Positions 1 to 64,000 of a stretch of DNA of 64,000 nt are shown in pieces; position 1 is the stretch's first letter; the number at the start of each line of letters is the position of its first letter. The stretch comes from Chamaelirium japonicum (Eukaryota > Streptophyta > Magnoliopsida > Liliales > Melanthiaceae): contig CANTAL010000143.1 in assembly GCA_947650365.1 (NCBI GenBank), positions 744,001 through 808,000 of the forward strand, read 5' to 3'. The position numbers and the translations under genes were made by a program. The notes under the pieces were generated by a model. The model was not told the DNA's origin. It worked only from the letters and a program-made list of their open reading frames with translations, and ran no database searches.

Positions 1-592
1 CGAATGGATTAGAATGGACACATTCGAGCGAATGAATTAGAATGGATCGTACGAATGAATTAGAATGGATCGCACGAATGGATTAGAATGGATCCTACGA
101 ATGGATTAGAATGGATACCTTTGTGCATATGAATTAGAATGGATCGTACGAATGAATTAGAATGGATCATATGAATGAATTAGAATGGATCGTGTGAAAG
201 AATTAGAATGGATTGTATGAATGAATTAGAATAGATCCTATGAATGAATTAGAATGGATCGTACGAATGGATTAGAATGGATCGTACGAATGAATTAGAA
301 TGAATACATTCGTGCGAATGAATTAGAATGGATGCATTCGTGCGAAAAAATTAGAATAGATCGTATGAATGAATTAGAATGGATCCTATGAATGAATTAG
401 AATGGATCGTGCGAATGAATTAGAATGGATCGTACGAATGAATTAGAATGGATCGTGCTAATGAATTAGAATTGATCAAAGGAATGAATTAGCATGGATC
501 GTGCTAATGAATTAGAATGGAACATACGAATGAATTAGAATGGATCGTGTGAAAGAATTAGAATGGATTGTATGAATGAATTAGAATGAATT
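1..592 (+). repeat. F-orientation satellite block
   Basis: Head-to-tail units in F orientation. Its first ~207 bp, including a rare ATACCTTTGTGCATATG tail near 107-131, reappear inverted at about 601-811. It ends at a GAATTCGTACGATCC junction. Confidence 0.92.
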
Positions 593-811
593 CGTACGAT
601 CCATTCGAATTCATTCACACGATCCCTTCTAATTTATTCATATGATCCATTTTAATTCATTCGTATGATCCATTCAAATTCATATGCACAATGGTATCCA
701 TTATAATCCATTTGTAGGATCCATTCTAGTCCATTCGTACGATCCATTCTAATTCATTCGTACGATCCATTCTAATTCATTCGCTCGAATGTATCCATTC
801 TAATCCATTCG
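1..811. repeat. Inverted repeat, ~200-bp arms, ~390-bp spacer
   Basis: Bases 1-207 and 601-811 carry the same order of rare units in opposite orientation: ACATTCGAGCG, two CGTAC-type units, ATCCTACGAATGG, ATACC..TTGTGCATATG, CATATGAAT, CGTGTG. The outer edge is cut by the window, so the arms may be longer. Confidence 0.75.
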
Positions 812-1212
812 TACGATCCATTCTGATCCATTCGTACGATCCATTCTAATTCATTCGCATGAATGTAACCATTCTAATTCATTCATTTGATCCATTCTAA
901 TTCATTCGTACGATCCATTCTAATTCATTCGTCCGATCCATTCTAATTCATTCGCACGAATGTATCCATTCTAATTCATTCGTACGATCCATTCTAATTC
1001 ATTCATAGGATCCATTCTAATTCATTCATACGATCTATTCTAATTCTTTCGCACGAATGTATCCATTCTAATTCATTCGCACGAATGTATCCATTCTAAT
1101 TCATTCGTACGATCCATTCTAATTCATTCGCACGATCCATTCTAATTCATTCGTACGATCAATTCTAATTCATTAGCACGAATGTATCCATTCTAATTCA
1201 TTCGTACGATCC
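593..1212 (-). repeat. R-orientation satellite block
   Basis: Units read as CTAATTCATTC on the + strand. The left part is the inverted partner of the window's first ~207 bp. It ends in GTACGATCCTGAATTAG, a junction seen again at 56619 and, inverted, at 39945 and 46723. Confidence 0.92.
681..893 (-). repeat. Marker string of rare units, R form
   Basis: From CATATGCACAATGGTATCC to CATTCATTTGATCC. Confidence 0.8.
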
Positions 1213-2625
1213 TGAATTAGAATGGATCGTACGAATGAATTAGAATGGATACCTTTGTGCATATGAATTAGAATGGATCGTACGAATGAATTAGAATGGA
1301 TCATATTAATGAATTAGAATGGATCGTACGAATGAATTAGAATGGATACATTCGTGCGAATGAATTAGAATGGATCGTTCGAATCCATTAGACTGGATCG
1401 TGCCAATGAATAAGAATGGATCATACGAATGAATTAGAATGGATCGTACGAATTAATTAGAATGGATACATTCGTGTGAATGAATTAGAATGGATTGTAT
1501 GAATGAATTAGAATGGATCGTACGAATGAATTAGAATGGATCATACGAATTAATTAGAATGGATCATACGAATGAATTAGAATGGATCGTACGAATGAAT
1601 TAGAATGGATCGTACGAATGAACTAGAATGGATCGTACGAATGAACTAGAATGGATACATTCGTGCGAATGAATTAGAATGGATCGTACGAATGAATTAA
1701 AATGGATCGTACGAATGAATTCGAATGGATCTTACGAATAAATTAGAATGGATCGTACAAATGAATTAGAATGGATTGTACGAATGAATTAGAATGGATA
1801 CATTCGTGCAAATGAATTAGAATGGATCGGACGAATGAATTAGAATGGATCGTACGAATGAATTAGAATGGATCAAATGAATGAATTAGAATGGTTACAT
1901 TCATGCGAATGAATTAGAATGGATCGTACGAATGGATTAGAATGGATCGTACGAATGGATTAGAATGGATACATTCGTGCGAATGAATTAGAATGGATTG
2001 TATGAATGAATTAGAATGAATCATACGAATGAATTAGAATGGATCGTATGAGTGAATTAGAATGGATACGAAGGAATTAGAATGGATCGTATGAAGGAAT
2101 TAGAATGGATCATACGAATGAAATAGAATGGATTGTACGAAGGAATTAGAATAGATCGTACAAAAGAATTAGAATGGATCGTACGAAGGAATTAGAATGG
2201 ATCGTACGAATGAATTAGAATGGATATATTCGTGCAAATGAATTAGAATGGATCGTATGAATGAATTAGGATGGATCGTATGAGTGAATTAAAACGGATA
2301 GTACGAATGACGTAGAATGGATCGTATGAATGAATTAGAATGGATACATTCGTGCGAATGAATTAGAATGGATCGTATGAATGAATTAGAATAGATTGTG
2401 CGAATGAATTAGAATGGATCGTACGAATGAATTAGAATGGATACACTCGTGCGAATAAATTAGAATGGATTGTATGAATGAATTAGAATGGATCGTACGA
2501 ATGAATTAGAATGGATCGTACGAATGAATTAGAATAGATTGCGCGAGTGAATTAGAATGGATCGTGCGAATGAAATAGAATGTATACAAATGAATTAGAA
2601 TGGATCATACGAATGAATTAGAATG
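1213..2625 (+). repeat. F-orientation satellite block
   Basis: Mixed 23- and 28-bp units. Its last ~300 bp, with a rare ATTGCGC tail and a shortened ATACAAATG unit, match about 59.85-60.16 kb. Confidence 0.92.
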
Positions 2626-2704
2626 ACGATCCATTCTTACTCATTCGTACGATCCATTCTAATTCATTCGCACGAATGTAACCATTCTAATTCATTCACA
2701 CGAT
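2626..2704 (-). repeat. Short R-orientation satellite block
   Basis: About three reversed units between ATGACGATCC and ACGATCGTATG junctions. The left junction is repeated at 60160. Confidence 0.88.
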
Positions 2705-3063
2705 CGTATGAATTAGAATGGATACATTCGTGCGAATGAATTTGAATGGATCGTGCGAATCCATTAGACTGGATCGTGCGAATGAATAAGAATGGATCAT
2801 ACGAATGAATTAGAATGGATCGTACGAATTAATTAGAATGGATACATTCGTGCGAATGAATTAGAATGGATTGTATGAATGAATTAGAATGGATCGTACG
2901 AATGAATTAGAATGGATCAACGAATTAATTAGAATGGATCATACGAATGAATTAGAATGGATCGTACGAATGAATTAGAATGGATCATACGAATGAACTA
3001 GAATGGATACATTCGTGCGAATGAATTAGAATGGATCATACGAATGAATTAGAATGGATCGTA
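2705..3063 (+). repeat. F-orientation satellite block
   Basis: About 15 units. It resembles 1320-1680, including the rare head GAATCCATTAGACTGG near 2757. Confidence 0.9.
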
Positions 3064-3316
3064 CGATTCATTCTAATTTATTCGTACGATCCATTCTAAT
3101 ACATTCGTATGATTCATGCTAATTCATTCGCACGATCCATTCTAATTCGTTCGTACGATCCATTCTTATTTATTCATACGATCCATTCTAATTCATTCGC
3201 ACAATCTATTCTAATTCATTCGTACAATCCATTCTAATTCATTCGTATGATCCATTCTAACTCATTCGGTGGATCCATTCTAATTCATTCGTACGATCCA
3301 TTCTAATTCATTCGTA
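3064..3316 (-). repeat. R-orientation satellite block
   Basis: It begins at GGATCGTACGATTC and carries the rare CATTCGGTGGATCC unit near 3263. Junction and rare unit both recur just downstream (3361 and 3427), so this is one half of a local duplication of about 300 bp with internal length differences. Confidence 0.88.
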
Positions 3317-3363
3317 CGAATGAATTAGAATGGATCGGACGAATGAATTAGAATGGATCGTAC
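3317..3363 (+). repeat. Two-unit F-orientation island
   Basis: Only two F units (tails ATCGGAC and ATCGTAC) lie between R blocks. This is among the smallest orientation islands in the window. Confidence 0.88.
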
Positions 3364-9094: not shown

Positions 9095-11281
9095 TCAATT
9101 CTAATTCATTCGCACGAATGTATCCATTCTAATTCATTCGTACGATCCATTCTAATTCATTCGTACGATCCATTATAATTCATTCGTACGATCCATTCTA
9201 ATTCATTCATACGATCTATTCTAATTCATTCATACAATCCACTCTAATTCTTTCACACGATCCATTCTAATTCATTCGTACGATCCATTCTAATTCATTC
9301 GCACAATCCATTCTATTTCATTCGTACGATCCATTCTTACTCATTGGTACGATCCATTCTAATTCATTCGCACGAATGTATCCATTCTAATTCATTCGTA
9401 CGAATCCATTCTAATTCATTCGTATAATCTATTCTATTTCATTCGTACGATCCATTCTTACTCATTCGTATGATCCATTCTAATTGATTCGCACGAATGT
9501 ATCCATTCTAATTCATTCATACAATCCATTCTAATTCATTCCGTACGATCCATTCTAATTCATTCGCATGAATGTAACCATTCTAATTAATTTATTTGAT
9601 CCATTCTAATTCATTCGTACGATCCATTCTAATTCATTCGTCCGATCCATTCTAATTCATTCGCACGAATGTATCCATTCTAATTCATTCGTATGATCCA
9701 TTCTAATTCATTCGTACGATCCATTCTAATTCATTCGTAAGATCCATTCTAATTCATTCGTACGATCCATTCTAATTCATTCGTACGATCCATTCTAATT
9801 CATTCGCACGAATGTATCCATTCTAATCCATTCGTACGATCCATTCTAATCCATTCGTACGATCCATTCTAATTCATTCGCATGAATGTAACCATTCTAA
9901 TTCATTCATTTGATCCATTCTACTTTATTCGTACAATCTATTCTAATTCATTTGTACGATCCATTCTAATTCATTCGTACAATCTATTCTATTTCATTCG
10001 TACGATCCATTCTTACTCATTCGTATAATCTATTCTAATTCATTCGGACGAAAGTATCCGTTCTAATTTATTCGTACGATCCATTCTAATTCATTCGTAC
10101 GATCCATTCTAATTCATTCGTCCGATCCATTCTAATTCATTCGCACGAATGTATCCATTCTAATTCATTTGTACGATCCATTCTAATCCATTCTAATTCT
10201 TTCACAAAATCTATTCTAATTCATTCATACGATCCATTCTAATTCATTCACACGAATGTATCCATTCTAATTCATTCATACGATCCATTCTATTCATTCG
10301 TACGATCCATTCTTACTCATTGGTACGATCCATTCTAATTCATTCGCATGATCCATTCTAATTCATTCGTACGATCCATTCTAATTCATTCGTACGATCC
10401 ATTCTAATTCATACGATTCATTCTAATTCATTCTAATTTGTATGATCCATTCTAATTCATTCGTATGATCCATTCTTATTCATTTGCACGATTCAGTCTA
10501 ATGGATTCGCACGATCCATTCTAATTCATTCGCACGAATGTATCCATTCTAATTCATTCGTACGATCCATTCTAATTCATTAATATGATCCATTCTAATT
10601 CATTCGTACGATCCATTCTAATTCATATGCACAAAGGTATCCATTCTAATCCATTCGTAGGATCCATTCGTACGATCCATTCTAATTCATTCGTACGATC
10701 CATTCTAATTCATTCGCTCGAATGTATCCATTCTAATCCATTCGTACGATCCATTCTAATCCATTCGTACGATCCATTCTAATTCATTCGCATGAATGTA
10801 ACCATTCTAATTCATTCATTTGATCCATTCTAATTCATTTGTACGATCCATTCTAATTTATTCGTCCGATCCATTCTAATTCATTCGCACGAATGTATCC
10901 ATTCTAATTCATTCGTACGATTCATTCTAATTCATTCGTACAATCCATTCTAATTCATTCGTACGATCCATTCTAATTCATTCGTACGAATATATCCATT
11001 CTAGTTCATTCGTACGATCCATTCTAATTCATTCGTCCGATCCATTCTAATTCATTCGCACGAATGTATCCATTCTAATTCATTCGTACGATCCATTCTA
11101 ATTCATTCGTACGATCTATTCTAATTCATTCGTACGATCCATTCTTACTCATTCGTACGATCCATTCTTACTCATTCGTATGATCCATTCTAATTCATTC
11201 GCACGAATGTATCCATTCTAATTCATTCATACAATCCATTCTAATTCTTTCCGTACGATCCATTCTAATTCATTTGTACGA
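9095..11281 (-). repeat. R-orientation satellite block
   Basis: Long reversed block. From about 10770 it is the start of a ~4.9-kb segment repeated in tandem at about 15701. It ends at a GTACGATCGTACG palindrome. Confidence 0.93.
10624..10826 (-). repeat. Marker string of rare units, R form
   Basis: Reverse complement of the 8600-8811 order, slightly shorter. Confidence 0.8.
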
Positions 11282-12662
11282 TCGTACGAATGAATTAGAA
11301 TGGATCGTACGAATGAATTAGAATGGATCATACGAATGAGTAAGAATGGATCGTACGAATGAAATAGAATGGATTGTACGAATGAATTAGAATGGATCGT
11401 GCGAATGAATTTGAATGGATCGTATGAATGAATTAGAATGGATCGTGCTAATGAATTAGAATTGATCGTACGAATGAAATTGAATGGATTGTACAAATGA
11501 TTTAGAATGAATCGTACGAATGAATTAGAATGGATCGTACGAATGATTTAGAATGGATACATTCGTGCGAATGAATTAGAATGGATCATACGAATGAGTA
11601 AGAATGGATCGTACGAATGAAATAGAATGGATTATACGAATGAATTAGAATGGATTCGTACGAATGAATTAGAATGGATACATTCGTGCGAATGAATTAG
11701 AATGGATCGTACCAATGAGTAAGAATGGATCGTACGAATGAAATAGAATGGATTGTGCGAATGAATTATTAGAATGGATCGTACGAATGAGTAAGAATGG
11801 ATCGTATGAATGAATTAGAATGGATCGTATGAATGAATTAGAATGGATCGTGTGAAAGAATTAGAGTGGATTGTACGAATAAATTAGAATAGATCGTATG
11901 AATGAATTAGAATGGATCGTACGAATGAATTACAATGGATCGTACGAATGAATTAGAATGGATCATACGAATGAATTAGAATGGATACATTCGTGCGAAT
12001 GAATTAGAATGGATCCGATGAATGAATTAGAATGGATCGTGCGAATGAATTAGAATGGATCCTACGAATGAATTAGAATGGATCCTACGAATGAATTAGA
12101 ATGGATCTTGTGAAAGAATTAGAATGGATTGTATAAATGAATTAGAATGGATCGTATGAATGAATTAGAATGGATCGTGCGAATGAATTAGAATTGATCA
12201 AACGAATGAATTAGCATGGATCGTGCTAATGAATTAGAATGGAACGTACGAATGAATTAGAATGGATTGTGTGAAAGAATTAGAATGGATTGTATGAATA
12301 AATTAGAATGGATCGTACGAATGAATTAGAATGGATCGTGTGAAAGAATTAGAATGGATTGTATGAATGAATTAGAATAGATTGTATGAATGAATTAGAA
12401 TGGATCGTACGAAGGAATTAGAATGGATCGTACGAATGAATTAGAATGGATCGAACGAATGAATTAGAATAGATCGTACGAATGAATTAGAATGGATCGT
12501 ACGAATGAATTAGAATGGATCGTGTGAAAGAATTAGAATGGATCGTACGAATGAATTAGAATGGATCGTGCGAATGAATTAGAATGGATCGTATGAATGA
12601 ATTAGAATAGATCGTGCTAATGAATAAGAATTGATCGAACGAATGAATTAGCATGGATTGTG
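11282..12662 (+). repeat. F-orientation satellite block
   Basis: First copy of the block repeated at 16213-17544; the later copy lacks about 49 bp present here near 11766-11815. It ends in a GATTGTGCATTCTAATTC junction shared by both copies. Confidence 0.92.
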
Positions 12663-13237
12663 CATTCTAATTCATTCGTAAGATCTATTCTAATTCATTT
12701 GTACGATCCATTCTAATTCATTCGTACAATCCATTCTAATTCATTCGCACGAATGTATCCATTCTAGTTCATTCGTACGATCCATTCTAATTCATTCGTA
12801 CGATCCATTCTAATTCATTCATACGATCTATTCTAATTCATTCATACAATCCATTCTAATTCTTTCACACGATCCATTCTAATTCATTCGTATGATCCAT
12901 TCTAATTCATTCGTACGATCCATTCTAATTCATTTTTACGATCCATTCTAATTCATTCGCACGAATATATCCATTCTAGTTCATTCGTACGATCCATTCT
13001 AATTCATTCGTACGATCAATTCTAATTCATTCGCACGATCCATTCTAATTCATTCGTACGATCCATTCTAATTCATTCGCACAAATGTATCTATTCTAAT
13101 TCATTCGTACATACGATCCATTCTAATTCATTCGCACGAATGTATCCATTCTAATTCATTTGTATAATCCATTCTATTTCATTCGTACGATCCATTATTA
13201 CTCATTCCGTACGATCCATTCTAATTCATTCGTACGA
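12663..13237 (-). repeat. R-orientation satellite block
   Basis: 575 bp, the same length as its duplicate at 17545-18119. It ends at a GTACGATCGTACG palindrome. Confidence 0.92.
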
Positions 13238-14318
13238 TCGTACGAATGAATTAGAATGGATCGAACGAATGAATTAGAATAGATTGTACGAATGAATTAG
13301 AATGGATCCTACGAATGAATTAGAATGGATCGTGTGAAAGAATTAGAATGGATCGTACAAATGAATTAGAATGGATCGTACGAATGAATTAGAATGGATC
13401 ATACGAATGAGAAAGAATGGATCGTACAAATGAAATAGAATGGATTGTACGAATGAATTAGAATGGATCGTACGAATGAATTAGAATGGATCGTGTAAAA
13501 GAATTAGAATGCATTGTATGAATGAATTAGAATGGATCGTATGAATGAATTAGAATGGATCGTGCGAATGAATTCGAATGGATCGCATGATCCATTCGAA
13601 TAGAATGGATCGTATGAATGAATTAGAATGGATCGGGCGAATGAATTAGAATGGATTGTAGGAATGAATTAGAATGGATCGTATGAATGAATTAGAATGG
13701 ATCTTATGAATGAATTAGAATGGATCGTGCGAATGAATTAGAATGGATCATACGAATGAATTAGAATGGATCGTACGAATGAATTAGAATGGATCGTACG
13801 AATGAATTAGAATGGATCATACGAATGAATTAGAATGGATCATACGAATGAGTAAGAATGGATCGTACGAATGAAATAGAATGGATTGTACGAATGAATT
13901 AGAATGGATACATTTGTGCGAATGAATTAGAATGGATCGTACGAATGAACTAGAATGGATCGTACGAACGAATTAGAATGGATCGTACGAATGAATTAGA
14001 ATGGATCTTACGAATGAATTAGAATGGATCGTACGAATGGATTAGAATGGATACATTCGTGCGAATGAATTAGAATGGATTGTATGAATGAATTAGAATG
14101 GATCGTACGAATTAATTAGAATGGATCGTACGAATGAATTAGAATGGATCATACGAATGGATTAGAATGGATTGTACGAATGAATTAGAATGGATCCTAC
14201 GAATGAATTAGAATGGATCGTGTGAAAGAATTAGAATGTATTGTATGAATGAATTAGAATGGATCGTATGAATAAATTAGAATGGATCGTGCGAATGAAT
14301 TCGAATGGATCGTACGAA
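13238..14318 (+). repeat. F-orientation satellite block carrying a hairpin dyad
   Basis: Member of a six-copy block family that starts at a GATC-centred palindromic junction and carries a 30-nt dyad about 330-440 bp in. The others start at 18120, 36857, 43608, 51670 and 61847. Confidence 0.92.
13572..13601. repeat. Hairpin dyad, 13-bp stem, GCAT loop
   Basis: ATTCGAATGGATC, then GCAT, then the exact reverse complement. F units lie on both sides, so it is a one-unit inversion. Confidence 0.88.
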
Positions 14319-15173
14319 TTCATTCTAATTCATTCATACAATCCATTCTAATTCTTTCACACGATCCATTCTAATTCATTCGTACGTTCCATTCTAATTC
14401 ATTAGCACGATCCATGCTAATTCATTCGTTTGATCAATTCTAATTCATTCGCACGATCCATTCTAATTCATTCATACGATCCATTCTAATTCATTTATAC
14501 AATCCATTCTAATTCTTTCACACGATCCATTCTAATTCATTCGTAGGATCCATTCTAATTCATTCGTACAATCCATTCTAATCCATTCGTATGATCCATT
14601 CTAATTCATTTGTACGATCCATTCTAATTCATTCATACAATCCATTCTAATTCATTCGCACGAATGTATCCATTCTAATCCATTCGTACGATCCATTCTA
14701 ATTCATTCGTACGATCTATTCTAATTCATTCGTCCGATCCATTCTAATTCATTCGCACGAATGTATCCATTCTAATTCATTCGTACGATCCATTCTAATT
14801 CATTCGCACGAATGTATCCATTCTAATCCATTTGTACGATCCATTCTAATCCATTCGTACGATCCATTCTAATTCATTCGCATGAATGTAACCATTCTAA
14901 TTCATTCATTTGATCCATTCTAATTCATTCGTACGATCCATTCTAATTCATTAGCACGATCCATGCTAATTCATTCGTTTGATCAATTCTAATTCATTAG
15001 CACGATCCATTCTAATTCATTCGTACGATCCATTCTAATTCATTCGCACGATCCATTCTAATTCATTCATAGGATCCATTCTAATTCATTCATACGATCT
15101 ATTCTAATTCTTTCGCACGAATGTATCCATTCTAATTCATTCGCACGAATGTATCCATTCTAATTCATTCGTA
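14319..15173 (-). repeat. R-orientation satellite block
   Basis: Begins at CGTACGAATTCATTC and ends at CATTCGTACGAATG. Its duplicate at 19179-20245 is about 210 bp longer. Confidence 0.92.
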
Positions 15174-15460
15174 CGAATGAATTAGAATGGATCGTACGAA
15201 TGAATTAGAATAGATCGTACGAATGAATTAGAATGGATCGTACGAAGAAATTAGAATGGATCGTACGAATGAATTAGAATGGATATATTCGTGCAAATGA
15301 ATTAGAATGGATCATATGAATGTATTAGAATGGATCGTATGAGTAAATTAGAATGGATCGTACGAATGAATTAGAATGGATTGTATGAATGAATTAGAAT
15401 GGATCGTACGAATGAATTAGAATGGATCGTACGAATGAATTAAAATGGATACATTCGTGC
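15174..15460 (+). repeat. F-orientation satellite block
   Basis: 287 bp, the same length as the copy at 20246-20532 and one unit longer than the copy at 24137-24400. It ends at ATTCGTGCGATCC. Confidence 0.92.
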
Positions 15461-50287: not shown

Positions 50288-50860
50288 AATGGATACATTC
50301 ATGTGAATGAATTAGAATGGATCGTACGAATGAGTAAGAATGGATCGTACGAATGAAATAGAATCGATTGCACGAATGAATTAGAATGGATCGTACGAAT
50401 GAATTAGAATGGATTGTGTGAAAGAATTAGAATGGATTGTATGAATGAATTAGAATGGATCGTACGAATGAATTTGAATGGATCGTACTAATGAATTAGA
50501 ATAGATCGTACGAATGAATTAGAATGGATCGTACAAAGGAATTAGAATGGATCGTTCGAATGAATTAGAATGGATATATTCGTGCAAATGAATTAGAATG
50601 GATCGTATGAATGTATTAGAATGGATCGTATGAGTGAATTAGAATGGATCGTACGAATGAATTAGAATGGATCGTATGAATGAATTAGAATGGATACAAT
50701 CGTGTGAATGAATTAGAATGGATCGTATGAATGAATTAGAATAGATTTTGTGAATGAATTAGAACTGATCGTACGAATGAATTAGAATGGATACATTCGT
50801 GCGAATGAATAGAATGGATTGTATGAATAAATTAGAATGGATCGTACGAATGAACTAGAA
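50288..50860 (+). repeat. F-orientation satellite block
   Basis: Starts at CGTACGAATGGATAC and ends at CTAGAATTCATTCG. Confidence 0.92.
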
Positions 50861-51669
50861 TTCATTCGTAAGATCCATTCTAATTCATTCGTAAGATCCA
50901 TTCTAATTCATTCGTACGATCCATTCTAATTCATTCGTACGATCCATTCTAATTCATTCGTACGATCCATTCTAATTCATTCGCACGAATGTATCCATTC
51001 TAATTCATTCGTATAATCCATTCTATTTCATTCGTACGATCCATTCTTACTCATTCGTATGATGTATTCTAATTCATTCGTACGATCCATTCTAATTCAT
51101 TCGTACGATCCATTCTAATTCATTCGCACGATCCATTCTAATTCATTTATACGATCCATTCTAATTCATTCATACGATCCATTCTAATTCATTCCTACAA
51201 TCCATTCTAATTCATTCGCCCGATCCATTCTAATTCATTCATACGATCCATTCTATTCGAATGGATCATGCGATCCATTCGAATTCATTCGCACGATCCA
51301 TTCTAATTCATTCATACGATCCATTCTAATTCATTCATACAATGCATTCTAATTCTTTCACACGATCTATTCTAATTCATTGTACGATCCATTCTAATTC
51401 ATTCGTACAATCCATTCTATTTCATTTGTACGATCCATTCTTACTCATTCGTATGATCCATTCTAATTCATTCGTACGATCCATTCTAATTAATTTGTAC
51501 GATCCATTCTAATTCATTCGTACAATCCATTCTATTTCATTCGTACGATCCATTCTTACTCATTCGTATGATCCATTCTAATTCATTCGCACAAATGTAT
51601 CCATTCTAATTCATTCATACAATCCATTCTAATTCATTCTGTACGATCCATTCTAATTCATTCGTACGA
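50861..51669 (-). repeat. R-orientation block with dyad
   Basis: Copies about 53.8-54.6 kb. Carries a dyad at 51255-51284 and ends in the GATC palindrome. Confidence 0.92.
51255..51284. repeat. Hairpin dyad, inverted context (ATGC loop)
   Basis: The same dyad read from the other strand, inside R units. Confidence 0.88.
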
Positions 51670-53215
51670 TCGTACGAATGAATTAGAATGGATCGTACGA
51701 ATGAATTAGAATAGATTGTGCGAATGAAGTAGAATGGATCGTACGAATGAATTAGAATGGATCGTACGAATGAATTAGAATGGATCCTACGAATAAATTA
51801 GAATGGATCGTGTGAAAGAATTAGAATGGATCGTACAAATGAATTAGAATGGTTCGTATGAATGAATTAGAATGGATCATACGAATGAGTAAGAATGGAT
51901 CGTACAAATGAAATAGAATGGATTGTACGAATGAATTAGAATGGATCATACGAATGAATTAGAATGGATCGTGTGAAAGAATTAGAATGCATTGTATGAA
52001 TGAATTAGAATGGATCGAATGAATGAATTAGAATGGATCGTGCGAATGAATTCGAATGGATCGCATGATCCATTCAAATAGAATGGATCGTATGAATGAA
52101 TTAGAATGGATCAGGCGAAGGAATTAGAATGGATCGTAGGAAGGAATTAGAATGGATCGTATGAATGAATTAGAATGGACCGTATGAATGAATTAGAATG
52201 GATCGTGCGAATGAATTAGAATGGATCGTACGAATGAATTAGAATGGATCATACGAATGAATTAGAATGGATTATACGAATGAGTAAGAATGGATCGTAC
52301 GAATGAAATAGAATGGTTTGTACAAATGAATTAGAATGGATACATTCGTGCGAATGAATTAGAATAGATCGTACGAATGAATTAGAATGGATCGTACGAA
52401 TGAATTAGAATCGATCGTACGAATGAATTAGAATGGATCTTACGAATGAATTAGAATGGATCGTACGAATGGATTAGAATGGATACATTCGTGCGAATGA
52501 ATTAGAATGGATTGTATGAATGAATTAGAATAGATTGTACGAATGAATTAGAATGGATCGTACGAATGAATTAGAATGGATCGTACGAATGAATTAGAAT
52601 GGATCGTACGAATGAATTAGAATAGATCGTACGAATGAATTAGAATGGATCGTACGAAGGAATTAGAATGGATCGTACGAATGAATTAGACTGGATCGTA
52701 CGAATGAATTTGAATGGATACATTTGTTCGAATGAATCTAAATGGATTGTATGAATGAATTACAATGGATCGTACGAATGAATTAGAATGTATCGTACGA
52801 ATGAATTAGAATGTATCGTACGAATGAATTAGAATAGCTCATACGAATGAATTAGAATGAATCGTATGAATGAATTAGAATGGTTACATTCGTGTGAATG
52901 AATTAGAATAGATCGTACGAATGAATTAGAATGGATCGTACGAATAAATTAGAATGGATCGTGGGAATGAATTAGAATGAATCGTACGAATGAATTAGAA
53001 TGGATCCACCAAATGAGTTAGAATGGATCATACGAATGAATTAGAATGGATTGTACGAATGAATTAGAATGGATTGTGCGAATGAATTAGAATGGATCGT
53101 ATGAATGAATAAGAATGGATCGTACGAATGAATTAGAATGGATCGTGCGAATGAATTAGCATGAATCGTACGAATGTATTAGAATGGATCGTACGAATGA
53201 ATTAGAATAAATCGT
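51670..53215 (+). repeat. F-orientation block with dyad
   Basis: Fourth of the 36857-type blocks, with a dyad at 52050-52079 and the GGATCCACC unit near 52984. Ends at a CGTACG palindrome. Confidence 0.92.
52050..52079. repeat. Hairpin dyad, one stem mismatch
   Basis: Same element with the right stem ATTCAAAT instead of ATTCGAAT, a CpG-type change. Confidence 0.85.
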
Positions 53216-54606
53216 ACGATCCATTCTAATTACTTCGTCCGATTCAATCTAATTCATTCGCATGAATGTATCCATTCTAATTCATTCGTACAATCCATTC
53301 TATTTCATTCGTACGATCCATTCTTACTCATTCGTATGATCCATTCTAATTCATTCGTATGATCCATTCTAATTCATTCGTACGATCCATTCTAATTCAT
53401 TCGTACGATCCATTCTTATTCATTCATACGATCCATTCTAATTCATTCGCACAATCCATTCTAATTCATTCGTACAATCCATTCTAATTCATTCGTATGA
53501 TCCATTCTAACTCATTTGGTGGATCCATTCTAATTCATTCGTACGATTCATTCTAATTCATTCCCACGATCCATTCTAATTTATTCGTATGATCCATTCT
53601 AATTCATTCGTACGATCTATTCTAATTCATTCACACGAATGTAACCATTCTAATTCATTCATACGATTCATTCTAATTCATTCGTATGAGCTATTCTAAT
53701 TCATTCGTACGATACATTCTAATTCATTCGTACGATCCATTGTAATTCATTCATACAATCCATTTAGATTCATTCGAACAAATGTATCCATTCAAATTCA
53801 TTCGTACGATCCAGTCTAATTCATTCGTACGATCCATTCTAATTCCTTCGTACGATCCATTCTAATTCATTCGTACGATCTATTCTAATTCATTCGTACG
53901 ATCCATTCTAATTCATTCGTACGATCCATTCTAATTCATTCGTACGATCCATTCTAATTCATTCGTACAATTTATTCTAATTCATTCATACAATCCATTC
54001 TAATTCATTCGCACGAATGTATCCATTCTAATCCATTCGTACGATCCATTCTAATTCATTCGTAAGATCCATTCTAATTCATTCGTACGATCGATTCTAA
54101 TTCATTCATACGATCTATTCTAATTCATTCCTACAATCCATTCTAATTTATTTGCCCGATCCATTCTAATTCATTCATACGGTCCATTCTATTCGAATGG
54201 ATCATGCGATCCATTCGAATTCATTCGCACGATCCATTCTAATTCATTCATACGATCCATTCTAATTCATTCATACAATGCATTCTAATTCTTTCACACG
54301 ATCCATTCTAATTCATTCGTACGATCCATTCTAATTCATTCGTACAATCCATTCTATTTCATTTGTACGATCCATTCTTACTCATTCGTATGATCCATTC
54401 TAATTCATTCGTACGATCCATTCTAATTCATTTGTACGATCCATTCTAATTCATTCGTACAATCCTTTCTATTTCATTCGTACGATCCATTCTTACTCAT
54501 TCGTATGATCCATTCTAATTCATTCGCACAAATGTATCCATTCTAATTCATTCATACAATCCATTCAAATTCATTCCGTACGATCCATTCTAATTCATTC
54601 GTACGA
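53216..54606 (-). repeat. R-orientation block with dyad
   Basis: Dyad at 54191-54220. The last ~800 bp match 50.87-51.67 kb. Confidence 0.92.
54191..54220. repeat. Hairpin dyad, inverted context (ATGC loop)
   Basis: Perfect stem inside R units, duplicate of 51255. Confidence 0.88.
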
Positions 54607-54923
54607 TCGTACGAATGAATTAGAATGGATGGATATATTCGAGCGAATGAATTAGAATAGATCGTAGGAATGAATTAGAATGGATCATACGAATGAATTA
54701 GAATGGATCGTACGAATGAATTAAAATGGATCGTACGAATAAATTAGAATGGATACATTCGCCCGAATGAATTAGAATGGATCATACGAATGAGTAAGAA
54801 TGGATCGTACTAATGAAATAGAATAGATTGTACGAATGAATTAGAATGGATCCTACGAATAAATTAGAATAGATCGTGTGAAAGAATTAGAATGGATTGT
54901 ATGAATGAATTAGAATGAATTCG
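54607..54923 (+). repeat. F-orientation satellite block
   Basis: Between a GATC palindrome and a GAATTCGTACGATCC junction. Confidence 0.92.
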
Positions 54924-56619
54924 TACGATCCATTTGAATTCATTCGCACGATGCATTCTAATTCATTCGTACGATCCATTCTAATTCATTCATACAATCC
55001 ATTCTAATTCTTTCACATGATCCATTCTAATTCATTCGTAGGATCCATTCTAATTCATTCGTATAATCTATTCTATTTCATTCGTACGATCAATTCTTAC
55101 TCATTGGTATGATCCATTCTAATTCATTCAGACGAATGTATCCATTCTAATTTATTCGTACGATCCATTCTAATTCATTCGTACGATCCATTATAATTCA
55201 TTCGTCCGATCCATTCTAATTCATTCGTCCGATCCATTCTAATTCATTCGCACGAATGTATCCATTCTAATTCATTCGTACGATCCATTCTAATTCATTC
55301 GTACGATCCATTCTAATTCATTTGTAAGATCCATTCTAATTCATTCGTACGATCCATTCTAATTCATTCGGACGAATGTATCCATTCTAGTTCATTCGTA
55401 CGATCCATTCTAATTCATTCGTACGATCCATTCTAATTCATTCGCACGATCTATTCTAATTCATTCGTACGATCCATTCTAATTCATTCATACGATCCAT
55501 TCTAATTCATTCGTACGATCCACTCTAATTCATTCGCACAAATGTATCCATTCTAATTCATTCGTACGATCCATTCTAATTCATTCGCACGATCCATTCT
55601 AATTCATTCGTACGATCCATTCTAATTCATTCGCACAATCTGTTCTTATTCATTCGCACAATCTATTCTAATTCATTCGCACGAATGTATCCATTCTAAT
55701 TCATTCGTACGATCCATTCTAATTCATTCGTACGATCCATTCTAATTCATTCGTATGATACATTCTAATTAATTCGTATGATCCATTCTAATTCATTCGT
55801 ACGATCCATTCTAATTCATTCATACAATCCATTCTAATTCATTCGCACGAATGTATACATTCTAATTAATTCGTACGATCCATTCTAATTCATTTGTATG
55901 ATCTATTCTTATTCATTCGCACGATCCAGTCTAATTGATTCGCACGATCCATTCTAATTCATTCGCACGAATGTATCCATTCTAATTCATTCGTACGATC
56001 CATTCTAATTCATTAATATGATCCATTCTAATTCATTCGTATGATCCATTCTATTTCATATTCACAAAGGTATCCATTCTAATCCATTCGTAGGATCCAT
56101 TCTAATCCATTCGTACGATCCATTCTAATTCATTCGTACGATCCATTCTAATTCATTCGCTCGAATGTATCCATTCTAATCCATTCGTACGATCCATTCT
56201 AATCCATTCGTACGATCCATTCTAATTCATTCGTATAAATGTAATCATTCTAATTCATTCATTTGATCCATTCTAATTCATTTGTACGATCCATTCTAAT
56301 TAATTCGTCCGATCCATTCTAATTCATTCGCACGAATGTATACATTCTAATTCATTCGTACGATCCATTCTAATTCATTCGTACGATCCATTCATAAGAT
56401 CCATTCTAATTCATTCGTACGATCCATTCTAATTCATTCGTACGATCCATTCTAATTCATTCGCACGAATGTATCCATTCTAGTTCATTCATACGATCCA
56501 TTCTAATTTATTCGTACGATCCATTCTAATTCATTCGCACGATTCATTCTAATTCATTCGTACGATCAATTCTAATTCATTCGCACGAATGTATCCATTC
56601 TAATTCATTTGTACGATCC
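54924..56619 (-). repeat. R-orientation satellite block
   Basis: Carries a marker string at 56057-56269 and ends at GTACGATCCTGAATTAG. Confidence 0.93.
56057..56269 (-). repeat. Marker string of rare units, R form
   Basis: Same order, 800 bp before another copy. Confidence 0.8.
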
Positions 56620-56785
56620 TGAATTAGAATGGATCGTACGAATGAATTAGAATGGATACCTTTGTGCATATGAATTAGAATGGATCGTACGAATGAATTA
56701 GAATGGATCATATTAATGAATTAGAATGGATCGTACGAATGAATTAGAATGGATACATTTGTGCGAATGAATTAGAATGGATCGT
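56620..56785 (+). repeat. Short F-orientation block, left arm and spacer of a palindrome
   Basis: Left arm plus spacer of the 309-bp palindrome centred near 56775. Confidence 0.93.
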
Positions 56786-56929
56786 GCACGAATGTATCCA
56801 TTCTAATTCATTCGTACGATCCATTCTAATTCATTAATATGATCCATTCTAATTCATTCGTATGATCCATTCTAATTCATATGCACAAAGGTATCCATTC
56901 TAATCCATTCGTAGGATCCATTCTAATCC
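56621..56929. repeat. Near-perfect palindrome, 144-bp arms, 21-nt spacer
   Basis: Left arm 56621-56764 and right arm 56786-56929 are reverse complements with about five mismatches by eye. The spacer is 56765-56785. The arms keep a specific order of rare units (ATACCTTTGTGCATATG, CATATTAATG, a 28-bp unit), so this is a true inverted duplication rather than generic similarity between F and R units. It could extrude as a cruciform. Confidence 0.85.
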
Positions 56930-57663
56930 ATTCGTACGATCCATTCTAATTCATTCGTACGATCCATTCTAATTCATTCGCTCGAATGTATCCATTCTAA
57001 TCCATTCGTACGATCCATTTTAATCCATTCGTACGATCCATTCTAATTCATTCGCATGAATGTAACCATTCTAATTCATTCATTTGATCCATTCTAATTC
57101 ATTCGTCCGATCCATTCTAATTCATTCGCACAAATGTATCCATTCTAATTCATTCGTACGATCCATTCTAATTCATTCGTACGATCGATTCTAATTCATT
57201 CGTAAGATCCATTCTAATTCATTCGTACAATCCATTCTAATTCATTCGTACGATCCATTCTAATTCATTCGCACAAATGTATCCGTTCTAGTTCATTCGT
57301 ACGATCCATTCTAATTCATTCGTACGATTCATTCTAATTCATTCGCACGATCCATTCTAATTCATTCGTACGATCCATTCTAATTCTTTCACACGATCCA
57401 TTCTAATTCATTCGTACGATCCATTTTAATTCATTCGTACGATCCATTCTAATTCATTCGTACGATCCATTCTAATTTCTTCGTACGATCCATTCTAATT
57501 CATTTATACAATCCATTCTAATTCTTTCACACGATCCATTCTAATTCATTCGTACGATCCATTCTAATTCATTCGTGTAATCCATTCTATTTCATTCGTA
57601 CGATCCATTCTTACTCATTCATAGGATCCATTCTAATTCATTCACACGAACGTATCCATTCGT
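56786..57663 (-). repeat. R-orientation satellite block
   Basis: First 144 bp form the right arm of the palindrome. The marker string is complete at 56878-57090. Confidence 0.93.
56878..57090 (-). repeat. Marker string of rare units, R form
   Basis: Begins inside the right arm of the 56621-56929 palindrome. Confidence 0.8.
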
Positions 57664-59000
57664 ACGAATGAATTAGAATAGATTGTACGAATGAATTAGA
57701 ATGGATCGTACGAATGAATTAGAATAGATCGTACGAAGGAATTAGAATGGATCGTACGAATGAATTAGAATGGATCGTACGAATGAATTAGAATGGATCG
57801 TACGAAGGAATTAGAATGGATCGTACGAATGAATTAGAATGGATATATTCGTGCAAATGAATTAGAATGGATCGTATGAATGTATTAGAATTGATCATAT
57901 GAGTGAATTAGAATGGATCGTACGAATGAATTAGAATGGATTGTATGAATGAATTAGAATGGATCATAAGAATGAATTAGAATGGATCGTACGAATGAAT
58001 TAGAATGGATCGTGCGAATGAATTAGAATGGATCGTACGAATGAATTAGAATGGATCGTACGAATGAACTAGAAAGGATACATTCGTGCGAATGAATTAG
58101 AATGGATCGTACGAATGAATTAGAATGGATCGTACGAATGGATTAGAATGGATCATACGAATGAATTAGAATGGATCGTGCGAATGAATTAGAATGGATC
58201 GAACGAATGAATTAGAATGGATATATTCGAGCGAATGAATTAGAATAGATCGTAGGAATGAATTAGAATGGATCATACGAACGAATTAGAATGGATCGTA
58301 CGAACGAATTAGAATGGATCGTACGAACGAATTAGAATGGATCATATGAACAAATTAGAATGGATCGTACGAATGAATTAGAATGGATACATTCGAGCGA
58401 ATGAATTAGAATGGATCGTACGAATGAATTAGAATAGATCATAGGAATGAATTAGAATGGACCGTGCAAATGAATTAGAATGGATACATTCGTGCGAATG
58501 AATTAGAATGGATCGTGCGAATGAATTAGAATGGATCGTACGAATGAATTAGAATGGATATATTTGAACGAATAAATTAGAATGGATCATACGAATAAAT
58601 TAGAATGGATCGTACGAATGAATTAGAATGGATAGTGCGAATGAATTAGAATGGATCGTACGAATGAATTAGAATGGATACATTCGTGCGAATGAATTAG
58701 AATGGATCATACGAATGAGTAAGAATGGATCGTACGAATGAAATAGAATGGATTATACAAATGAATTAGAATGCATACATTCGTGCGAATGAATTAGAAT
58801 GGATCGTATGTACGAATGAATTAGAATAGATACATTCGTGCGAATGAATTAGAATGGATCGTACGAATGAATTAAAATGGATCGTGTGAATGAATTAGAA
58901 TGGATCATACGAATGAATTAGAATGGATCGTACGAATGAACTAGAATGGATACATTCGTGGGAATAAATTAGAATAGATCGTACGAATGAATTAGAATGG
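57300..59000. repeat. Distant copy of about 4.6-6.1 kb
   Basis: The R-to-F junction and rare tails ATATTCGAGC, ATATTTGAAC and ATCGTATGTAC follow in the same order as in 4.6-6.12 kb. The offset is about 52.7-52.9 kb and changes by ~190 bp through inserted units. Confidence 0.75.
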
Positions 59001-60160
59001 ATCGTACGAATGAATTAGAATGGATCTTACAAATGAATTAGAATGGATCGTACGAATAAATTAAAATGGATCGTATGAATGGTTTAGAATGGATACATTC
59101 GTGCGAATGAATTAGAATGGATCGGACGAATGAATTAGAATGGATCGTACGAATGAATTAGAATGGATCAAATGAATGAATTAGAATGGTTACATTCATG
59201 CGAATGAATTAGAATAGATCGTACGAATGGATTAGAATGGATCGTACGAATGGATTAGAATGGATACATTCGTGCGAATGAATTAGAATGGATCATACGA
59301 ATGAGTAAGAATAGATCGTACGAATGAAATAGAATGGATTGTACGAATGAATTAGAATGGATCGTGCGAATGAATTTGAATGGATTGTACGAATGAATTA
59401 GAATGGATCGTGCTAATGAATTAGAATTGATCGTACGAATGAAATAGAATGGATTGTACGAATGATTTAGAATGGATCGTACGAATGAATTAGAATGGAT
59501 CGTACGAATGATTTAGAATGGATACATTCGTACGAATGAATTAGAATGGATCATACAAATGAGTAAGAATGGATCGTACGAATGAAATAGAATGGATTGT
59601 ACGAATGAATTAGAATGGATTCGTACGAATGAATTAGAATGGATACATTCGTGCGAATGAATTAGAATGGATCGTACCAATGAGTAAGAATGGATCGTAC
59701 GAATGAAATAGAATGGATTGTTCGAATGAATTAGAGTGGATCGTACGAATGAATTAGAATGGATCGTGTGAAAGAACTAGAATGGATTGTATGAATGAAT
59801 TAGAATAGATCGTATGAATGAATTAAAATGGATCGTACGAATGAATTAGAATGGATCGTACGAATGAATTAGAATGGATACATTCGTGCGAATGAATTAG
59901 AATGGATCGTATGAATGAATTAGAATAGATTGTGCGAATGAATTAGAATGGATCGTACGAATGAATTAGAATGGATAGATTCGTGCGAATAAATTAGAAT
60001 GGATTGTATGAATGAATTAGAATGGATCGTACGAATGAATTAGAATGGATCGTACGAATGAATTAGAATAGATTGCGCGAATGAATTAGAATGGATCATG
60101 CGAATGAAATAGAATGGATACAAATGAATTAGAATGGATCATACGAATGAATTAGAATGA
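57664..60160 (+). repeat. Longest F-orientation block
   Basis: 2.5 kb without a switch. The left part copies 4969-6124 and the right end copies ~2.3-2.63 kb. Confidence 0.93.
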
Positions 60161-60329
60161 CGATCCATTCTTACTCATTCGTATGATCCATTCTAATTTA
60201 TTCGCACGAATGTATCCATTCTAACTCATTCGTACGCATAATTCATTCGTACGGTCCATTCTAATTCATTCGCACAATCCATTCTATTTCATTCGTACGA
60301 TCCATTCTTACTCATTCGTATGATCCATT
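60161..60329 (-). repeat. Short R-orientation satellite block
   Basis: Between GACGATCC (as at 2626) and CCATTATGGATAC. Confidence 0.9.
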
Positions 60330-61422
60330 ATGGATACATTCGTGCGAATGAATTAGAATGGATCATACGAATGAGTAAGAATGGATCGTACGAATGAAAT
60401 AGAATGGATTGTGCGAATGAATTAGAATGGATCGTACGAATGAATTAGAATAGTTCGTGTGAAAGAATTAGAATGGATTGTATGAATGAATTAGAATGGA
60501 TCGTATGAATGAATTAGAATGGATCGTACGAATGAATTAGAATGGATACATTCGCGAATGAATTAGAATGGATCGTACGGATGAATTAGAATGGATCGTA
60601 CGAATGAATTAGAATGGATCTTACGAATGAATTAGAATGGATCGTACGAATGAATTAGAATGGATCGTACGAATGAATTAGAATGGATACATTTGTGCGA
60701 ATGAATTAGAATGGATCGTACGAATGAATTAGAATGGATCGTATGAATGAATTAGAATGGATCGTAGGAAGGAATTAGAATGGAGCGTACGAATGAATTA
60801 GAATGGATATATTCGTGCAAATGAATTAGAATGGATCGTATGAATGTATTAGAATGGATCGTATGAGTTAATTAGAATGGATCGTGCGAATGAATTAGAA
60901 TAGATTGTATGAGTGAATTAGAATGGATCGTACAAATGAATTAGAATGGATCATACGAATTAATTAGAATGGATCATACGAATGAATTAGAATGGATCGT
61001 ACGAATGAATTAGAATTAGAATGGATATATTCGTGCGAATGAATTAGAATGGATACATTCGTGCGAAAGAATTAGAATAGATCGTATGAATGAATTAGAA
61101 TGGATCCTATGAATGAATTAGAATGGATCGTGCGAATGAATTAGAATGGATCGTACGAATGAATTAGAATGGATACATTCGTGCGAATAAATTAGAATGG
61201 ATCGGACGAATGAATTAGAATGGATCGTACGAATGAATTAGAATGGATCAAATGAATGAATTAGAATGGTTACATTCATGCGAATGAATTAGAATGGATC
61301 GTACGAATGGATTAGAATGGATCATACGAATGGATTAGAATGGATACATTCGAGCGAATGAATTAGAATGGATCGTACGAATGAATTAGAATGGATCGTA
61401 CGAATGAATTAGAATGAATTCG
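60330..61422 (+). repeat. F-orientation satellite block
   Basis: Starts at CCATTATGGATAC and ends at GAATTCGTACGATCC. Partial marker string near 61245-61352. Confidence 0.92.
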
Positions 61423-61846
61423 TACGATCCATTCGAATTCATTCGCACGATCCATTCTAATTCATTCATACGATCCATTCTAATTCATTCATACAATCCA
61501 TTCTAATTCTTTCACACGATCCATTCTAATTCATTCGTAGGATCCATTTTAATTCATTCGTACAATCTATTCTATTTTATTCGTACGATCCATTCTTACT
61601 CATTCGTTTGATCCATTCTAATTCATTCGGACGAATGTATCCATTCTAATTTATTTGTACGATCCATTCTAATTCATTCGTACGATCCATTCTAATTCAT
61701 TCGTACGATCCATTCTTACTCATTCGTATGATCCATTCTAATTCATTCGTACGATCCATTCTAATTCATTCGTACGATCCATTCTAATTCATTCGCACAA
61801 TCTATTCTAATTCATTCGTACGATCCATTCTAATTCATTCGTACGA
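61423..61846 (-). repeat. R-orientation satellite block
   Basis: Short form of 35903-36856. Ends in the GATC palindrome. Confidence 0.92.
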
Positions 61847-61999
61847 TCGTACGAATGAATTAGAATGGATCGTACGGAAAGAATTAGAATGGATTGTATG
61901 AATGAATTAGAATGGATACATTCGTGCGAATGAATTAGAATGGATGATACGAATGAGTAAGAATGGATCGTACGAATGAAATAGAATGGATTAGAATGG

Positions 62000-62230
62000 A
62001 TCATAAGAATGAGTAAGAATGGATCGTACAATTGAAATAGAATGGATTGTACGAATGAATTAGAATGGATCGTACGAATGAATTAGAATGGATCGTACAA
62101 ATGAATTAGAATGGATCATAAGAATGAGTAAGAATGGATCGTACAATTGAAATAGAATGGATTGTACGAATGAATTAGAATGGATCGTACGAATGAATTA
62201 TAATGGATCGTGTGAAAGAATTAGAATGCA
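62000..62230 (+). repeat. 115-bp direct duplication
   Basis: Rare tails ATCATAAG and CGTACAATTG recur exactly five 23-bp units apart (62001 and 62116). Confidence 0.8.
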
Positions 62231-62288
62231 TTGTATGAATGAATTAGAATGGATCGTATGAATGAATTAGAATGGATCGTGCGAATGA

Positions 62289-62318
62289 ATTCGAATGGAT
62301 CGCATGATCCATTCGAAT
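62289..62318. repeat. Hairpin dyad, 13-bp stem, GCAT loop
   Basis: Perfect stem in the last 36857-type block. Confidence 0.88.
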
Positions 62319-63199
62319 AGAATGGATCGTATGAATGAATTAGAATGGGTCGGGCGAATGAATTAGAATGGATTGTAGGAATGAATTAGAATGGATCGTA
62401 TGAATTAATTAGAATGGATCGTATGAATGAATTAGAATGGATCGTGCGAATGAATTAGATTGGATCGAACGAATGAATTAGAATAGATCGTATGAATGAA
62501 TTAGAATGGATCATATGAATGAATTAGAATGGATCATACGAATGAGTAAGAATGGATCGTACGAATGAAATAGAATGGATGGTACGAATGAATTAGAATG
62601 GATACATTCGTGCGAATGAATTAGAATGGATCGTACGAATGAAGTAGAATGGATCGTACGAATGAATTAGAATGGATCGTACGAATGAATTAGAATGCAT
62701 CGTACGAAAGAATTAGAATAGATATATTCGTGCGAATGAATTAGAATGGATCGTACGAATGAATTAGATTGAATCGTACGAATGAATTTGAATGGATACA
62801 TTTGTGCGAATGAATCTAAATGGATCGTACGAATCGTACGAATGATTGTATGAATGAATTAGAATGGTTACATTCGTGCGAATGAATTAGAATAGATCGT
62901 ACGAATGAATTAGAATGGATCGTACGAATAAATTAGAATGGATCGTGGGAATGAATTAGAATGGATCGTACGAATGAATTAAAATGGATCCACCGAATGA
63001 GTTAGAATGGGTCATACGAATGAATTAGAATGGATTATACGAATGAATTAGAATGGATTGTGCGAATGAATTCGAATGGATCGTATGAATGAATAAGAAT
63101 GGATCATACGAATGAATTAGAATGGATCATGCGAATGAATTAGCATGAATCGTACGAATGTATTAGAATGGATCATACGAATGAATGAGAATGAATCGT

Positions 63200-63963
63200 A
63201 CGATCCATTCTAATTTATTCGTACGATCCATTCTAATTCATTCGCACGAATGTATCCATTCTAGTTCATTCGTACGATCCATTCTAGTTCATTCGTACGA
63301 TCCATTCTAATTCATTCATACGATCCATTCTAATTCATTCGTATGATCCATTCTAATTAATTCGTATGATCCATTCTAATTCATTCGTACGATCCATTCT
63401 AATTCATTCATACAATCCATTCTAATTCATTCGCACGAATGTATCCATTCTAATTAATTCGTACGATCCATTCTAATTCATTCGTATGATCCATTCTTAT
63501 TCATTCGCACGATCCAGTCTAATGGATTCGCACGATCCATTCTAATTCATTCGCACGAATGTATCCATTCTAATTCATTAATATGATCCATTCTAATTCA
63601 TTCGTACGATCCATTCTAATTCATTCGTACGATCCATTCTAATTCATTCGCACGATCCATTCTAATTCATTCGTACAATCTATTCTATTTCATTCGTACG
63701 ATCCATTCTTACTCATTCGTATGATCCATTCTAATTCATTCGGACGAATGTATCCATTCTAATTTATTCGTACGATCCATTCAAATTCATTCATACGATC
63801 CATTCTAATTCATTCGTACGATCCATTCTAATTCATTCGTCCGATCCATTCTAATTCATTCGCACGAATGTATCCAATCTAATTCATTCGTACGGTCCAT
63901 TCTAATTCATTCGTACAATCCATTCTATTTCATTCGTATGATCCATTCTTACTCATTCGTATG
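63200..63963 (-). repeat. R-orientation satellite block
   Basis: Copy of 38189-39006 and 44977-45770, but the end junction differs (CGTATGAATGGATAC). Confidence 0.92.
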
Positions 63964-64000
63964 AATGGATACATTCGTGCGAATGAATTAGAATGGATTG
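63964..64000 (+). repeat. F-orientation satellite block, cut by window end
   Basis: Start of a further F block. It shows that the array continues past the window. Confidence 0.85.

Follow-up and report, generated by a model that had tools for sequence, protein, structure and literature searches.

Many orientation switches in a satellite array attributed to Chio1/Chio2 of Chionographis japonica appear to descend by copying from a restricted set of older junctions

The window, which is the whole 64,000-bp stretch of Chamaelirium japonicum DNA that we analysed (position 1 corresponds to C155:744001 of the contig that holds it), consists of a 23-bp/28-bp satellite throughout and contains no non-satellite block. 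In a two-strand monomer HMM, its mean identity to the consensus was 93.4%. The 28-bp variant differs from the 23-bp unit by an inserted TACAT and an A4-to-G substitution, and the insert is present in 14.2% of the approximately 6,025 monomers of C155. The window has no open reading frame of at least 150 aa and no Rfam match at the gathering threshold. Monomers of 23 and 28 bp, distinguished by 5 bp and one substitution, characterize the Chio satellite, and its motif TTCGTACGA, given in the Fig. 2 legend of PMC12722358, is present in the consensus unit of the window. On these grounds, we take the window to be a piece of the Chio1/Chio2 centromere satellite of Chionographis japonica, from which it differed in no tested feature. 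Chio1/Chio2 is described as the CENH3-associated centromere satellite of Chionographis (Chamaelirium) japonica, with published CENH3 enrichment (main-text sections of PMC10264360), and as the most abundant repeat, at about 16% of the genome (passages of PMC10264360 and PMC12722358). In a search of 1,518,659,071 bases in 3,253 records, an exact 28-mer of the satellite was found 863,628 and 873,254 times on the two strands, and these 1,736,882 copies are a lower bound on satellite abundance.

With the 23-bp unit and the 28-bp variant modeled on both strands, the array (1–64000) resolved into 81 alternating blocks, 41 forward (F) and 40 reverse (R), that are separated by 80 switches and total 29,697 and 34,303 bp, respectively (46.4:53.6). 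Interior blocks span 41 to 3,728 bp; the final F block (39 bp) is truncated by the window end. These values bear out the first-pass annotation, which had described about 80 flips between 41 F and 40 R blocks of about 40 bp to 3.7 kb at a ratio of about 46:54, and which was right to call such flipping unusual for a satellite. The count stayed at 80 with switch priors of 1e-4, 1e-8, and 1e-12, was 75 at 1e-20, and reached 128 at 1e-2, where 1-bp blocks appear. A model without switches cost about 23,450 log units, the same HMM found 0 switches in a head-to-tail array simulated at comparable divergence, and no 9-mer of the unit is common to the F and R strands. When the strand HMM was run on wider sequence, a check that the first-pass annotation had proposed, switching continued beyond the window: 85 switches were found in C155:654001–718000 and 98 in C155:741500–821062, which includes the window, and the 5-kb pieces L029 (C1) and L030 (C9), picked without regard to window similarity, switch too. 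The median length of 181 blocks in C155 was 567 bp. Orientation flipping of the Chio satellite is itself an established fact, because the frequent alternation has already been published (passages of PMC10264360 and PMC12722358).

The sequences at the switches form a limited repertoire. The 80 window junctions fell into 31 clusters at thresholds of 0.92–0.94 and into 33 at 0.95, whereas synthetic independent joins gave 78, 78, 79, and 78 clusters per 80; likewise, the window junctions contain 40 distinct 24-mers, compared with 80 of 80 in synthetic joins. With only about 31 clusters among 80 switches, the implication of some 80 separate flips found no support. Half of the window junctions (40/80) fall into a cluster that includes a junction from a different contig, a share that is biased upwards because seven of the nine other loci (L002–L008, all outside C155) had been selected for resemblance to the first kilobase of the window. 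For the otherwise chosen L030 and L029, a C155 junction was matched at 0.94 by 8/8 and 5/8 junctions, respectively. The commonest shared F-to-R junction, exemplified at 14301–14340 (switch at 14320), contains an exact 25-base word with 15,249 copies in the genome (7,603 + 7,646), and a shared R-to-F junction at which the strands do not overlap, exemplified at 35452–35491 (switch at 35471), contains an exact 24-base word with 8,616 copies (4,366 + 4,250). Exact words from made-up control joins had 294 + 327 and 3 + 4 copies genome-wide.

We extended the comparison to 233 junctions, the number left after three of 236 were dropped from L029 (before its position 1,100, where it is non-satellite); junctions less than 70 bp from a sequence end and the insert region C155:718001–741499 were left out. 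Among the junction types with at least two members, mean identity exceeded the synthetic mean by a margin in 20 of 23 (0.90–1.00 versus 0.84–0.88) and was below it in three. Strand overlap at junctions was 2.63 versus 0.78 and 3.23 versus 0.95 bases for random phases, and 25 of 70 junction clusters had no overlap. Two classes, F-to-R (7,22) and R-to-F (11,25), look multi-origin: they account for 10/35 and 7/35 clusters, where 1.7% is expected (binomial P = 2.5e-10 and 1.8e-6). An example is the F-to-R switch at 29269 (29250–29289), which lies within the self-complementary TCGTACGA. Flank exchange could inflate the origin counts of both classes. The other types mostly share identical private flanking changes. 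Many flips in the window thus appear to derive from a restricted set of older junctions that spread as longer pieces were duplicated in both orientations.

If instead every switch were an independent event at the TCGTACGA dyad, with no copying, the multi-origin appearance of the two classes (10/35 and 7/35 clusters) would be expected. However, together they cover just 34 of the 233 junctions, and the same private flanking changes recur in most of the remaining types, so that we regard such a pure hot spot as improbable. The first-pass annotation had also raised the concern that switches are assembly joins, in which reads of opposite orientation were stitched into a contig. The contig is 821 kb long and continues for 13 kb past the window to an end that is palindromic, and the switches are known from the assembly alone. 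Nevertheless, the same junctions and flanking changes occur in other contigs and in chromosome-scale scaffolds, and the main-text sections of PMC10264360 report a HiFi assembly at 58.5x as well as alternating orientation. The two junction words with 8,616 and 15,249 copies make assembly joins unlikely as a general cause, and we consider this explanation highly improbable. The clustering of 40/80 junctions with other contigs and the junction words in thousands of copies largely answer the concern for switches in general, though not for each single switch.

Longer duplications were evident when segments were compared with each other. In the 143.6 kb of satellite in C155, similar segment pairs (at least 250 bp and at least 96.5% identity) were inverted in 308 cases and direct in 288, similar counts that are not counts of events; per identity bin, the inverted and direct pairs numbered 200/171, 85/91, and 23/26. 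Unique pair ends in C155 lay within 2 bp of a switch in 4.2% and 4.3% of cases, compared with 0.6% at shifted positions. A switch that arose later and merely broke an alignment would likewise put pair ends at switches. Two direct duplications on the forward strand include their switches: one at 10726–20787, with offsets of about 4.9–5.1 kb and 98.6–99.6% identity (ungapped direct pairs C155:754726–759715 versus 759657–764787), and one at 19452–26814, with offsets of about 3.85–3.89 kb and 98.9–99.3% identity (ungapped direct pairs C155:763452–766967 versus 767344–770814).

Among recent inverted pairs, the largest forms a palindrome whose two arms, each of 13.1 kb, are 99.6% identical and carry 14 mirrored switches each. 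Its left arm occupies 50272–63450 and is followed by a 512-bp spacer (63451–63962) with an R-to-F switch at 63961 on its right edge; the right arm, C155:807963–821062, has only 38 bases within the window and stops at the contig end. This 13-kb inverted duplication is thus seen with the caveat that it runs into the contig end. The arms aligned over 13,031 columns with 53 mismatches, seven 23-bp indels, and one 56-bp indel, differences that argue against an assembly join, and 35 of the 53 substitutions are transitions. A strict BLAST search returned another copy for 28 of the 80 switch points, compared with 58% of 600 random points, and missed duplications that the pair comparison found. By itself, the BLAST figure of 28/80 gives a reading based on copying no support.

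Alternating blocks and balanced totals would also result from many separate inversions, in which pieces of a former head-to-tail array were turned in place, one event per pair of switches. Their expected phase signature was sought in 169 blocks without 28-bp-insert states at the edges. At the loosest tolerance, 11/169 blocks carried it, compared with 7.4 (sd 2.4) after shuffling, whereas exact phase was seen in 0/169 (0.5 expected) and phase within one base in 2/169 (2.4 expected). Such inversions are also at odds with the collapse of 80 junctions into only 31 clusters and with single junctions in thousands of copies, and we judge this explanation unlikely. With a phase signature about at chance, simple inversion found no support as the main source of the flips. 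Inversions predating the copying could have lost the signature.

The wide sharing of junctions across contigs and the genome would also fit selection that keeps the flips, with opposed blocks folding into large hairpins or loops that centromere chromatin requires, a role suggested for Tribolium macro-dyads. Dyads and a hairpin prediction are published for Chio (passages of PMC10264360), and inversion sites are conserved in Tribolium madens (passages of PMC13081366). However, conservation within the monomer is lowest at the 8-bp dyad (88.3% versus 96.1%), for which CpG decay may account; block lengths range broadly from 41 bp to 3.7 kb; the arms flanking switches are no better mirror copies than chance pairs; and the alternation is absent from Chama arrays as described in passages of PMC12722358. 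We therefore find selection for structure an improbable cause. Given this lowest conservation, the reading of the dyad as a conserved functional core found no support.

We consider it probable that rare founding flips, partly at short self-complementary sequence, were then multiplied by orientation-blind copying in the Chio1/Chio2 holocentromere array. Some flips would have been founded by exchange or template switching at such sequence, with the 8-bp dyad TCGTACGA as the presumed chief site. The flipped junctions would then have been multiplied within copied segments, from hundreds of bases to over 10 kb long, that were inserted with roughly equal probability in the two orientations and are common to contigs and chromosomes. 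The molecular route may be fold-back or break-induced template switching, or the reinsertion of linear or circular fragments, and orientation itself would be under weak constraint. Fold-back copying through very short loops at the switches found no support: in a mirror-arm test that covered loops to about 150 bp and used the 198 of 233 junctions with both arms at least 150 bp, none (0/198) exceeded the 99th percentile of the null (own mean 92.9 versus 94.7), and thus no excess of close mirror copies was found.

A close point of comparison is Chama, the satellite of the sister plant Chamaelirium luteum. According to passages of PMC12722358, it is likewise centromeric and dyad-rich and has the 9-bp TTCGTACGA in common with Chio, but its 60-bp monomer is homogeneous and consistently oriented over hundreds of kilobases. 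The TCGTACGA dyad is therefore not sufficient for flipping, since Chama shares TTCGTACGA and yet keeps its orientation. Human alpha satellite of centromere 1 is also a centromeric satellite with a recorded inversion (passages of PMC9549924), whereas Chio has about one switch per 0.8 kb. In Tribolium madens, passages of PMC13081366 describe TmSat1/TmSat2 arrays that mostly consist of two opposed multi-kilobase subarrays with macro-dyad symmetry, and few types of inversion site conserved over thousands of copies. Orientation-switching arrays with inversion sites conserved in many copies were found here too, with the two multi-origin-looking classes as exceptions. Unlike that two-subarray layout, the window has 81 blocks in 64 kb, dozens of them short; the beetle satellite is unrelated in sequence, Chio has more junction types, partly of multiple origin, and the beetle organization was seen in raw long reads, whereas the flips here come from an assembly.

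The usual model of satellite evolution is unequal crossing over, under which monomers remain head to tail. An array with about equal shares of inverted and direct copies needs another copying route. We see an even chance that orientation-blind copying of inverted and direct segments, up to more than 13 kb, and not head-to-tail unequal exchange, drives the evolution of this holocentromere satellite; a restricted set of old flip junctions would thereby have turned into a repeat in its own right, present thousands of times across the genome, and the conserved inversion sites in Tribolium would parallel this independently in an animal. The few junction types in many copies and the similar numbers of inverted and direct pairs are absent from the main-text sections and passages on Chio in PMC10264360 and PMC12722358, and the addition to the published picture is the anatomy of the junctions. 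Chio junctions can be counted and compared and are thus ready-made markers for tracing the spread of centromere DNA along these holocentric chromosomes, and the sister species, whose arrays keep one orientation, offers a natural contrast.

The window is built of a 23-bp unit and a 28-bp variant, which fit Chio1 and Chio2, the centromere satellite of Chionographis japonica, a plant that appears in NCBI as Chamaelirium japonicum. The assignment is based on a 23/28-bp pair differing by 5 bp plus one base and from the TTCGTACGA core, as described in the accessible parts of two reports (PMC10264360, PMC12722358). The available portion of the latter describes the orientation of Chio arrays as frequently alternating and draws the consistently oriented arrays of Chama, the 60-bp satellite of the sister plant Chamaelirium luteum, as a contrast (PMC12722358). 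Both the satellite, as centromere DNA, and its alternation were thus known before; no junction-level analysis of Chio was found in the parts of the literature that were read. In the window TRF gave periods of 23, 46 and 69 bp and, in addition, of 74, 97 and 120 bp. The longer three are consistent with a single 28-bp unit plus 23-bp units behind it (two, three and four, respectively), suggesting short-range higher-order structure within blocks.

A two-strand HMM of the unit divided the window into 41 forward (F) and 40 reverse (R) blocks separated by 80 switches. F blocks total 29,697 bp and R blocks 34,303 bp, and the sequence matches the consensus at 93.4% identity. The same model returned no switches on a simulated head-to-tail array. 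The block and switch counts of the first-pass annotation are correct. The number of switches was 80 at priors of 1e-4, 1e-8 and 1e-12, 75 at 1e-20 and 128 at 1e-2. On C155, the 821,062-bp contig whose bases 744001-808000 form the window, 85 switches were counted in C155:654001-718000, and the interval C155:741500-821062, which includes the window, contained 98. Across the genome (1,518,659,071 bases in 3,253 records), an exact monomer 28-mer was present on the two strands in 863,628 and 873,254 copies, respectively.

Judged by sequence similarity, many of the switches look like copies drawn from a limited set of junctions. We compared 233 junctions, with 60 bp per side, taken from C155 plus nine further loci; similarity to the first kilobase of the window had guided the choice of seven of the nine. 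When junctions were typed by their phases on both strands, 23 types had at least two members; mean pairwise identity was 0.90–1.00 in 20 of these, against 0.84–0.88 for synthetic joins at matching phases, and lay under the synthetic mean in three (F-R 7,22; R-F 11,25; F-R 2,6). More than half of the same-type pairs (55% of 1,621) exceeded the 99th percentile of the null, and clustering within types reduced the 233 junctions to 69 clusters. Clustered irrespective of type, the 80 window junctions collapsed into 31 clusters when the threshold was set between 0.92 and 0.94 and into 33 at 0.95, and 67 of them fell in clusters of at least two; 80 independent synthetic joins, drawn four times, yielded 78, 78, 79 and 78 clusters. 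Likewise, the window held 40 distinct junction 24-mers, compared with 80 in the synthetic sets. The first-pass annotation had named assembly joins as what would refute the switching, but these explain it poorly because separate contigs have junctions in common: 40 of the 80 window junctions clustered with another contig, and at loci not picked by similarity, 8/8 (C9) and 5/8 (C1) junctions matched a C155 junction at an identity of at least 0.94. Genome-wide, an exact R-to-F junction 24-mer occurred 4,366 + 4,250 times, and an exact F-to-R 25-mer 7,603 + 7,646 times, while two made-up control joins occurred 294 + 327 and 3 + 4 times; at the dyad, a palindrome of 24 bp was present at 3,509 sites. 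Given its 294 + 327 occurrences, the first control join is itself a junction family of modest size elsewhere in the genome. Among the matches listed for its 621 occurrences, many lay in centromere units of two other sequences of the assembly (C2 and C3), and junction repertoires may differ partly between centromere units.

The two strands overlapped at the junctions by 2.63 bases in 35 F-to-R clusters and by 3.23 bases in 35 R-to-F clusters, compared with 0.78 and 0.95 for random phases; the observed overlaps were equalled in none of 5,000 random-phase draws. The classes crossing at the TCGTACGA dyad, F-R (7,22) and R-F (11,25), accounted for 10/35 and 7/35 clusters against an expectation of 1.7% each; both look multi-origin, with origin counts that flank exchange could inflate, and most of the remaining types look close to single-origin. 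An origin of all flips at this dyad is argued against by the 25 of 70 clusters without strand overlap, and also by the conservation of the dyad, the lowest within the monomer (88.3% vs 96.1%), with changes mostly at its CpG bases and A4. Moreover, Chama has the motif too, yet shows no alternation according to the accessible part of its description (PMC12722358). Within monomer positions 1–6 on C155, substitutions are frequent at the CpG bases of the TCGTACGA dyad (T for C1 in 13%, A for G2 in 13% and T for C5 in 19%), as expected if a methylated array were decaying by deamination. Close mirror copies were not in excess at switches (0/198), and a signature of simple inversion was not clearly present: of 169 blocks, 0 fitted at a tolerance of 0 bases (0.5 expected), 2 at 1 base (2.4 expected) and 11 at 2 bases (7.4 expected).

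Copying of segments was examined in the 143.6 kb of C155 satellite by collecting segment pairs that align without gaps over 250 bp or more at an identity of 96.5% or higher. The search yielded 308 inverted and 288 direct pairs (200/171, 85/91 and 23/26 by rising identity bin), which count pairs rather than events, many of the youngest coming from one palindrome and two direct duplications. The latter, both young, lie at window positions 10726-20787 (offset ~4.9-5.1 kb) and 19452-26814 (offset ~3.9 kb), as seen in ungapped pairs. A switch lay no more than 2 bp away from 4.2% of the unique ends of inverted pairs and 4.3% of those of direct pairs; shifted positions gave 0.6%. Such an end was present at 53 of 183 switches. 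Switches thereby mark rearrangement edges, although pair ends do not date switch against copying because a later switch breaking an alignment also predicts them. The palindrome, a young inverted duplication, pairs C155:794272-807450 (window 50272-63450) with an inverted counterpart at C155:807963-821062 across a 512-bp spacer. Its arms carry 14 switches each at similar distances from the centre. Aligned over 13,031 columns, they show 53 mismatches, of which 35 are transitions and 18 transversions, along with one 56-bp indel and seven whose length is exactly 23 bp. The arm differences look like true divergence, but the right arm terminates where the contig ends, so the palindrome may be a join of two haplotypes.

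A non-satellite insert of ~23 kb interrupts the array ~2.8 kb upstream of the window (C155:718000-741200). It contains a copia-type retrotransposon (Pfam RVT_2, rve and Retrotran_gag_2) flanked by direct repeats at C155:720695-722826 and 728556-730687, which a second pair encloses at C155:718116-719249 and 740019-741152; the insert looks like one LTR element nested inside another. In the same assembly, full-length COX1 was found at equal score on dozens of contigs (C514, C537, C551 and others), as though organelle DNA were present redundantly in many small contigs. The frames (532 aa) are free of stops in the standard code, as they are in plants.

For human live centromeres, one inversion is on record, in a figure legend within the accessible part of the source (PMC9549924). 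Of the systems found, the macro-dyad organisation of Tribolium madens, whose inversion sites are conserved, comes closest; in the available text its authors state that macro-dyad symmetries are documented in Tribolium only (PMC13081366). We describe the Chio array as a mosaic built up by orientation-indifferent copying of a limited repertoire of flip junctions, a copying for which template switching, fragment reinsertion and circular DNA would be candidate routes.
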